This document shows, one piece after another, positions 15,764 to 17,767 of a DNA stretch of 64,000 nt. Source of the stretch: Lachnospiraceae bacterium. GTDB lineage: Bacteria > Bacillota > Clostridia > Lachnospirales > Lachnospiraceae. The stretch spans positions 45,057-109,056 of the forward strand of contig JAEEYF010000006.1 in assembly GCA_016291655.1 (NCBI GenBank). The letters are read 5' to 3'. The position numbers and the translations under genes are program-made. Every line of letters begins with the position of its first letter. Within the stretch, counting starts at the first letter, position 1. Under the pieces are notes generated by a model. That model saw only the letters and a program-made list of their open reading frames with translations. It ran no database searches and was not told the DNA's origin.

Positions 15764-17221
15764 TCATCTCTTGAGATTGATAAGTTCTTCAAGCAGCGTG
15801 TCAGAAGTCGTGATGATCCTTGAGTTGGCCTGGAAACCACGCTGTGTAGTGATCATATTGGTGAATTCGGTTGCAAGATCTACGTTGGACATTTCAAGTA
15901 CGCCCGTGCTGAAGCTTCCGCCCGCTTCCGCAACAGTCTTTCCGATGCCGTCAAATTCGCCGGAGTTCTGTGTGGTTGCAAAAAGGCTTCCGCCTACCGC
16001 TTCAAGACCTGCTGCGTTTGCAAACTGAGCAACGACAACCTGTCCGAGAAGTCTTGATACACCATTGTCATATACGCCGTAGATCAGACCGTTTCCGTCA
16101 ACGGAACATCCGGTCATGTTTCCGGAGGTACGACCTGCTTTTGTTCCGTCCAGCGCACCCTTGGTATAGGCAATGGATGTTGAACCGCTGTTTGCGAACA
16201 TGGTCAATGAAGAGAAATCCACATCGATACCGCCTGCAGGGAAAGGATCCCCGGCAGTGTCCGTTGTTGCAAGAGAGAAATTGATCGAAGGATATTCATT
16301 TGCATCAAGATCGACGTTTTCATCAAAGTTTACATATGAAAACTTACCGGATGAACCGTCAAACTTAAGCAGGAAATTGTTCGTACTTGTAATGGCACCC
16401 GTATCCTGATTTACATCAAAGGTATACTGCTGTCCGCCTACCGTGAGCGAAAGGCCCGCGTTGGCAACATAAGTGTTGTTTGTCGAATCATAGGTTGAAA
16501 GAATGCTCTGTCCCGTGGAATCAACAATGTCCGTAACGGAAACATTATATAAAGTCTGATTGTCATCAGCCTGATTCAGTCTCAGGTTTACCGTATAGCT
16601 TCTTCCGAGTTTATCAAAGAAGGAAAATGCGGTAAGCTTACCGGTCGTTGAATCAAAGGCGGTATCAGCACTGTCGATGTTACCCGAAAAATAAACAGCT
16701 TCAGTTGCTTCGGGTGCGGAGTACATGTTTTCGGGAGCCATTATCCTTAAAGGGCTTACCGTATCCGCAACCGTGGTTGTTTCGTTATTGGGATCAACCT
16801 GCCATCCCATAACCGCATAGCCGTCAGCGTTGCAAAGAGTACCTGCCGCATCTACCGTAAAGGAACCCGCTTTTGTAAAGAGGTTTCCGCCTCCGTTGTT
16901 AACAACGAAGAAGCCGTCACCTTCGATCATAAGATCGAAAGGATTATCTGTTCTCTGTGATCCGCCGTTGATGCTTACAGACGTCATTACCGACGATACT
17001 GTAGAACCGAGACCGATCTGCATGGAGTTCTGACCTGCAGAACCTGCTTCCGCATTGGGTCCCGTTGCGGATGATGTTTTCTGGTAAAGAACATCTGAAA
17101 ACGTTACACTGCTGGCCTTGAATCCAACCGTATTTACGTTAGAGATGTTATTACCGATAACGTCCATCTTTGTTTGATGGACTTTCAGTCCGGAAACACC
17201 GGAATACAATGATCTCATCAT
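15764..17221 (-). CDS. flgE: Flagellar hook protein FlgE
   Basis: Structural subunit of the hook (485 aa). The N-terminus MMRSLYSGVSGLKVHQTKMD and NNISNVNTVGFK is the rod/hook/HAP signature, and the C-terminus (EFTNMITTQRGFQANSRIIT) is the matching coiled-coil segment; the middle is the variable FlgE D1/D2 region. The ATG at 17221 has a perfect AGGAGG at 8 bases; upstream in-frame codons run into a structured leader and are not coding. The gene has its own sigma-28-like promoter and a leader with two stem-loops. Confidence 0.95.
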   Translation of the reverse strand: MMRSLYSGVSGLKVHQTKMDVIGNNISNVNTVGFKASSVTFSDVLYQKTSSATGPNAEAGSAGQNSMQIGLGSTVSSVMTSVSINGGSQRTDNPFDLMIEGDGFFVVNNGGGNLFTKAGSFTVDAAGTLCNADGYAVMGWQVDPNNETTTVADTVSPLRIMAPENMYSAPEATEAVYFSGNIDSADTAFDSTTGKLTAFSFFDKLGRSYTVNLRLNQADDNQTLYNVSVTDIVDSTGQSILSTYDSTNNTYVANAGLSLTVGGQQYTFDVNQDTGAITSTNNFLLKFDGSSGKFSYVNFDENVDLDANEYPSINFSLATTDTAGDPFPAGGIDVDFSSLTMFANSGSTSIAYTKGALDGTKAGRTSGNMTGCSVDGNGLIYGVYDNGVSRLLGQVVVAQFANAAGLEAVGGSLFATTQNSGEFDGIGKTVAEAGGSFSTGVLEMSNVDLATEFTNMITTQRGFQANSRIITTSDTLLEELINLKR

Positions 17222-17245
17222 AGTAAATAGACCTCCTGAGTTTTT

Positions 17246-17296
17246 GTTTCCCTTCTGTCGGTCGGGGAAACTGTCGCCTCCTGTCGGTCCGGCGAC
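17246..17296 (-). promoter_or_regulatory. Tandem stem-loops with matching loops in flgE leader
   Basis: On the minus-strand RNA two perfect hairpins are separated by one base. The first (17273-17296) has stem GUCGCC/GGCGAC and loop GGACCGACAGGA. The second (17246-17271) has stem GUUUCCC/GGGAAAC and loop CGACCGACAGAA. The stems are unrelated while the 12-nt loops agree at 10 positions, which points to a conserved loop function. The hairpins end 25 bases before the flgE start and ~11 bases before its ribosome site. No known riboswitch is recognised. Confidence 0.7.
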
Positions 17297-17319
17297 TTTT
17301 TTTTGTCTCTTGTAATAGT

Positions 17320-17347
17320 TTATCGGCACAAATACTGCCACTCTTTA
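17320..17347 (-). promoter_or_regulatory. Sigma-28 (SigD/FliA-type) promoter before flgE
   Basis: Minus strand: TAAA (17344-17347), 16-bp spacer, GCCGATAA (17320-17327), which is a full match to the flagellar sigma-28 consensus elements. It begins about 15 bp after the stop of the preceding gene and predicts a leader of roughly 90 nt that contains the two stem-loops. This makes flgE a candidate for late-class expression in addition to read-through from the fla/che promoter. Confidence 0.75.
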
Positions 17348-17362: not shown

Positions 17363-17767
17363 TTATGCAATTACAGCACCGTCAATGTTGGAAAATACCA
17401 TTTCATCGTCTCCGGTAACAGCCGTAATGACCGTATTGTTCTTGATGTTAACGATAAATGCCATACCATCAACCATAACAAGAGATTCGTTAATCCCTTT
17501 AAGTCCCGCTTTTTTTGCTCCCGTCTCAAGCCTTTCAAGCTGTTCGTCCGTCATGTCTATGTCTCTGTCTTCAAGTCTTTCGGAGGCATGCTTTGAAAAT
17601 TTTAAGCCCGAAGCCTGCTGCTTTTGTTTCGCAAGGATCTCTTCAAAGGACGTTCCCAAAGGTGCATTATTCTTTGCGCCGTTCGCATTCTTTTGATTGG
17701 CGGCAAGAATATCCTGCATCTGTTGAATGGAATAATTGTTGTTAAAATTCAGATTGTTAAGTGCCAT
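17363..17767 (-). CDS. Flagellar operon protein, TIGR02530 family
   Basis: Small protein (134 aa) of the conserved family found between flgD and flgE in Firmicutes and related phyla; its function is not established, though the position suggests a part in hook assembly. The family motif LKFSKHASERLEDRDI is present, followed by a C-terminal domain ending ...VNIKNNTVITAVTGDDEMVFSN in shortened form. The start ATG follows the flgD stop by 1 bp and uses the GGAGG inside flgD's last codons. Confidence 0.9.
   Translation of the reverse strand: MALNNLNFNNNYSIQQMQDILAANQKNANGAKNNAPLGTSFEEILAKQKQQASGLKFSKHASERLEDRDIDMTDEQLERLETGAKKAGLKGINESLVMVDGMAFIVNIKNNTVITAVTGDDEMVFSNIDGAVIA

Follow-up and report, generated by a model that had tools for sequence, protein, structure and literature searches.

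A paired-hairpin element in the flgE leader

The window analysed here, a stretch of 64,000 nucleotides from a Lachnospiraceae bacterium (assembly GCA_016291655.1, contig JAEEYF010000006.1, positions 45,057 to 109,056), harbours two RNA hairpins in the leader of flgE, the gene for the flagellar hook protein. This gene lies on the minus strand, as do the other features listed in this paragraph, and spans 15764..17221 (ATG at 17221). Its assignment is based on the open reading frame (ORF) and on family models: the product passes the cut-off of TIGR03506 (FlgE/F/G subfamily), and its top-scoring model is a FlgE model, with a score under that model's own cut-off. The gene at 17363..17767 encodes a flagellar protein of the TIGR02530 family (93.9 bits against a cut-off of 83.2). 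Between these two genes lie hairpin 1 (HP1; 17273..17296; GTCGCC-GGACCGACAGGA-GGCGAC) and hairpin 2 (HP2; 17246..17271; GTTTCCC-CGACCGACAGAA-GGGAAAC), separated by one base. HP1 is laid out as GUCGCC, a GGA bulge, CC-GACA-GG, an A and GGCGAC; it is defined by sequence, fold and covarying helices in alignments A4 and A7, and HP2 by sequence, fold, covariation and a table of its loops. The whole element, as delimited by covariance-model matches (R1, 50.2 bits, E 1.4e-11 over 185 kb; R2, 59.6 bits), covers 17245..17298. Downstream, the sequence of the flgE ribosome site (Shine-Dalgarno, SD; CUCAGGAGGUC; 17230..17240) includes a GGUC able to pair with the GACC of HP1, and 5' of the element a pattern match gives a sigma28-like promoter, TAAA-N16-GCCGATAA (17320..17347).

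Folding of the leader RNA (-23.8 kcal/mol, z -2.78) reproduces both stems and adds CC/GG pairing inside HP1; an equally stable fold was obtained in 2 of 200 shuffles of the leader. The plus strand of the same region folds unremarkably (z -0.89). A plus-strand intrinsic terminator, called at 17282-17294, was considered and rejected: the identified flagellar genes on either side are on the minus strand, and the T run is not retained in the near relatives L010-L012.

The first-pass annotation of this stretch had described two adjacent stem-loops with unrelated stems and an identical 12-nt loop, a pattern that would suggest a duplicated site for one loop-binding factor. The stems are borne out by the fold and by comparative evidence far above chance, but the loops are similar rather than identical, agreeing at 10 of 12 positions, nine of them contiguous (GACCGACAG). 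This word occurs 19 times in the genome, against 11 times for its reversed control, and is therefore not rare. Among 196 distinct copies of the element, a word of at least eight bases common to both hairpins is found in the window's copy alone, and part of this common sequence belongs to the variable tip of HP1. The likeness of the window's two loops is chance, and there is next to no prospect that the hairpins are two copies of one loop site. Instead of a single loop signature, each hairpin has its own: a GGA/A internal loop followed by CC/GG in HP1, and GAMYGAYWGA in HP2.

Conserved structure and covariation

It is nearly certain that the two hairpins constitute a single copy of one conserved structured RNA. 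In A4 (37 copies), the covariation score is 0.783, compared with 0.262 in shuffles, with two-sided changes at 13 of 14 pairs; in A7, which comprises 43 distinct copies from other classes that did not enter the model, covariation is 0.737 as against 0.261 after shuffling. Because A4 to A7 were fitted to the structure in the model and are thereby biased towards it, a check made without a covariance model matters. RNAalifold, run on 25 copies aligned simply with MAFFT, recovered HP2 with 7 of 7 pairs covarying. HP1 was not recovered from this alignment, probably because its 3' strand is misaligned there. Model R2 includes two rows in which HP1 is misaligned (the second copy of L075, and L078).

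The conserved parts of HP1 are an outer helix, an internal loop with GGA in the 5' strand and A or G in the 3' strand, and then CC/GG (or CU/AG) below a variable tip; among the 196 distinct copies, 152 have GGACC and 27 have GGACU. HP2 combines a freely varying helix with a 12-nt loop, xGAMYGAYWGAx, whose three GA steps are fixed at 96-100% across 190 assigned loops (six of the 196 copies, without an assignable loop, are excluded from the table). The earlier proposal of variable stems around a conserved loop thus holds for the flgE leader, through the covarying stems and the fixed HP2 loop. A k-turn or k-loop would have tandem sheared G.A pairs beside a 3-nt bulge; at the level of sequence, G.A and A.G steps are possible in 186 and 189 of the 190 loops. 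The HP1 tip is about 12-30 nt longer in genus g232 (L181, L186, L187) than elsewhere, and an apparent extra hairpin separates HP1 from HP2 in L075 (3022-3066) and L078 (82-139).

Fixed loops and a wide range would also be expected of a small-ligand riboswitch, and cyclic di-GMP (c-di-GMP) riboswitches can govern flagellar operons (PMC11477304). The c-di-GMP-I riboswitch described there resembles the present element in being a structured RNA that precedes flagellar genes of a clostridial species. It stands at the head of the flgB operon, controls transcription and has c-di-GMP as its ligand. By contrast, the present element has no Rfam match and no visible expression platform, and its HP1-HP2 spacer varies and may include an extra hairpin, so that a riboswitch is very unlikely.

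Occurrence among genomes

Covariance-model searches, of the kind that the first-pass annotation had suggested, covered flgE loci and genomes of the family, class and phylum and yielded widespread matches. At flgE loci of relatives, the element is present in 25 of 30, by a simple pattern and by model R1 alike, and both leave the same five loci without it (L022, L028, L035, L037 and L038). Model R2 matched 146 of the 299 family genomes at E <= 0.01; at E <= 0.001 it matched 118 of 391 genomes from the class and 171 of 398 from the phylum. Most matching genomes carry one copy, and some Lachnospiraceae up to 11. When 17 loci were chosen among the pattern-scan matches listed and then tested, 11 carried the element at E < 1e-8; the pattern-scan matches listed are mostly chance-like. 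Weak R1 matches within ORFs (L072, L073, L079) were taken as chance, and L074 and the weak R2 matches L182 and L183 have no convincing gene downstream.

Within the 299 family genomes, strong copies are nearly confined to those that encode FlhA. With strong copies defined by E <= 1e-5, a split between strong and weak that was set after the data had been seen, FlhA is encoded in 127 of the 128 family genomes with a strong copy, and a strong copy is present in one of 144 genomes lacking FlhA; a further 28 genomes have FlhA without a strong copy, and 143 have neither.

The first-pass annotation knew of no described motif of this form, and no description has turned up since. In Rfam 15, no family reached its gathering threshold for the element, the search of the window giving tRNA only; for six relatives searched at E up to 1, the sole match was sR10, outside the element and under threshold. 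In the literature, the element is undescribed in the titles and abstracts of the papers listed, which in several searches were fewer than the papers found, a coverage that leaves aside supplements, where candidate lists may include it; the available portions of PMC8040213 and PMC6429828 contain no flagellar term, and what PMC11477304 says of flagella is about the c-di-GMP riboswitch.

Genes behind the element

The element sits between the upstream stop codon, which may overlap it, and the ribosome site. Among 39 rows from genomes of the class, it precedes flgE in 31, genes for uncharacterized proteins (here termed cargo) in six, and no convincing gene in two. In other classes (45 rows), eight copies stand before flgG, one has no readable start behind it, and the remainder precede flgE-like genes; where flgG loci were checked by family, five of five tested products were FlgG and two of two upstream genes were FlgF. 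The cargo genes follow additional copies in some Lachnospiraceae. They account for 46 of the 81 copies in set A5; this share is no frequency, since most of the 40 regions behind A5 were selected for being second copies.

In 22 of the 31 flgE copies in class genomes, the element starts no more than three bases from the upstream stop codon, usually that of the TIGR02530 gene. This position would suit processing or stability hairpins that segment a long flagellar operon and raise the amount of flgE mRNA. Such hairpins do not require a fixed loop, however, and in some cargo copies what precedes the element is a sigma28-like site (9 of 46 at >=10/12), not another gene of that operon; this explanation therefore seems quite improbable.

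Cargo proteins often begin with sequences such as MSIAGLG or MSINGIG, and Ser, Thr, Asn, Gln, Gly and Tyr are abundant in them. Of 20 that were scanned (10 against Pfam, the other 10 against NCBIfam), one passed a cut-off, that of DUF6033, and for one cargo protein the named homologues among the best 120 of 473 are all 'hypothetical'. With N-terminal patterns that were chosen after the proteins had been seen, an [IVLA]xG[IVL] start occurs in 22 of 46 cargo proteins and in 2 of 169 random-locus ORFs, FxxxPhi at residues 27-36 in 19 of 46 and 25 of 169 (p 2e-4), and a Sec-like stretch in 1 of 46 and 32 of 169. There is no excess of FxxxPhi over in-locus ORFs (19/58); many of these comparison ORFs resemble cargo paralogues, TIGR02530 or FlgD. 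An early flagellar export substrate would be expected to carry a small non-polar signal at its N-terminus and FxxxPhi about 30-40 residues in; the export signals of FlgD are SIAV at residues 2-5 and FLTLL at 36-40 (PMC8983047). Cargo proteins are accordingly predicted, from their early-flagellar-like N-termini, to be flagellar export substrates.

L075 and L078 include cargo genes broken by stops or frame shifts. L179 (G632:C11) carries five cargo copies, and its genome gave no match to TIGR02530; one gene there is near-identical to one in L116 of the Lachnospiraceae genome G298, making contamination or transfer likely.

Possible pairing with ribosome sites and distance to the start codon

The possible pairing of the HP1 GACC with a GGUC in the flgE ribosome site, raised by the first-pass annotation, was assessed over 92 flgE, 49 cargo and 5 flgG genes; this set excludes copies that have no start inside 150 nt and those whose N-terminus duplicates another. 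GGUC is present in the ribosome sites of 46 of 86 flgE leaders whose HP1 reads GGACC, compared with 36 of 508 other genes at the same loci (p 7e-23, kinship ignored), and in none of six flgE leaders in which HP1 is not read as GGACC or of five flgE genes without the element. Limiting the count to GGAGG sites gave 55/108 versus 0/134. This enrichment means that pairing between the HP1 loop and the SD may operate in flgE. Beyond flgE, GGUC occurs at two of five flgG genes and at one of 49 cargo genes; its rarity at the latter means that SD pairing cannot explain the conservation of GGACC everywhere.

The distance from the end of the match to the start codon is 12-15 nt in 20 of 49 cargo genes and 16-84 nt in 96 axial genes. 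The gap at these 20 cargo genes fits translation control and argues against an mRNA zip-code, by which the element would guide the transcript to the export gate of the flagellum, placing synthesis at the site of export without necessarily altering the translation rate. A zip-code would be consistent with the same gene set, the conserved loops and a spacing from the ribosome site that varies. The flagellin mRNA of C. jejuni is reported as polar, but also as requiring translation for its localisation (PMC4894983). On balance, we regard a zip-code as rather unlikely.

The TIGR02530 protein and sigma28-like sites upstream

The TIGR02530 gene is present in 51 of 53 genomes with a strong element, six of seven with a weak one and 10 of 20 flagellated genomes without it. 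Its product is predicted to have a RelE-like order of helices and strands, and has an FSKHAxERLxxR core preceded by an invariant FxxxL (F41, L45); a Foldseek search with it returned nothing significant. Named relatives of the window's protein are from Lachnospiraceae. With these sequence features, this distribution and its gene next door, TIGR02530 is the best candidate for a protein that would read the element. The case of genome G010 weakens TIGR02530 as sole reader.

The sigma28-like pattern, which uses the sigma28 consensus, has one site in the window, where 0.14 would be expected from base shuffles; a hook gene under sigma28 would be unusual. A site 5' of the element is also present in the near relatives L010-L012, and others precede the element in L122, L124, L133, L138, L141 and L146. 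Overall, sites scoring >=10/12 accompany 9 of 46 cargo copies and 1 of 35 flgE copies. In several cargo copies, inspection by eye revealed a terminator-like hairpin between the sigma28-like site and the element, some with an ANGGA loop or a GCTAAGGAYRGC-like hairpin and thus CsrA-like. It is possible that these upstream hairpins exert a second, attenuating control.

Proposed coupling of translation and export

Leader RNAs of export substrates are targets of control in several systems. The B. subtilis hag leader is controlled by CsrA and FliW, and yop mRNAs are repressed by the leader-binding YopD and LcrH until type III export relieves the repression; the likeness of the latter to the present element lies in its way of working and is an analogy. 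The flaA leader of C. jejuni, also controlled by CsrA/FliW, likewise places two stem-loops before a flagellar export substrate, and couples translation to export in the way proposed here. According to PMC4894983, both of its loops are of the ANGGA type, the second lying over the SD; the present element instead has a GGA/A internal loop and GAMYGAYWGA, and precedes hook, rod and cargo genes.

A site for CsrA acting with FliW, as in flagellin leaders, is nevertheless suggested by several observations: csrA and fliW are both present in the window's genome, CsrA occurs in 125 of 128 genomes with a strong copy, HP1 contains GGA, and ANGGA is found anywhere in 99 of 196 copies, compared with 59 when shuffled. 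However, the conserved HP1 GGA has an ANGGA context in only two of the 196 copies, and its position is taken by GGU in six copies and GGG in one, with ten more unclassified. The HP2 consensus is devoid of GGA, and no CsrA match was obtained in three genomes with strong copies (G008, G167 and G270; 94, 81 and 89% complete). In the window's leader, the single ANGGA, AGGGA, is within the HP2 stem. CsrA is thus an unlikely reader of the element.

The suggestion of the first-pass annotation that the element controls translation is plausible, and its most likely form appears to be a coupling to export: the leader RNA would be read by a flagellum-specific RNA-binding factor that links the translation of rod- and hook-type substrates to their export, a reading to which we give about an even chance. 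A protein would recognize HP2 and the HP1 internal loop and so block or release the adjacent ribosome site, and pairing of the HP1 loop with the SD could contribute at roughly half of the flgE leaders. Export of FlgM relieves sigma28. If the TIGR02530 protein were the reader, its export-type FxxxL and predicted RelE-like domain mean that it could be exported away, which would relieve repression in a similar manner: in both cases an exported repressor would signal export status, FlgM acting on sigma28 rather than on mRNA.

A broader and more doubtful possibility is that of an RNA code extending through the phylum, in which the element would tag the mRNAs for the hook, for the distal rod and for a concealed group of proteins that leave through the flagellum. 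Its reader would be TIGR02530, a repressor with a RelE fold and also one of the early substrates, so that synthesis of the exported proteins would start once the export gate opens. The matching of synthesis to export is better understood for flagellin than for the hook and rod proteins, and an RNA handle on flgE, flgG and cargo genes would offer a direct route to the regulator. The element also marks dozens of uncharacterized Lachnospiraceae proteins as possible flagellum-exported factors, and puts the question of whether type III export uses mRNA signals in a testable form.
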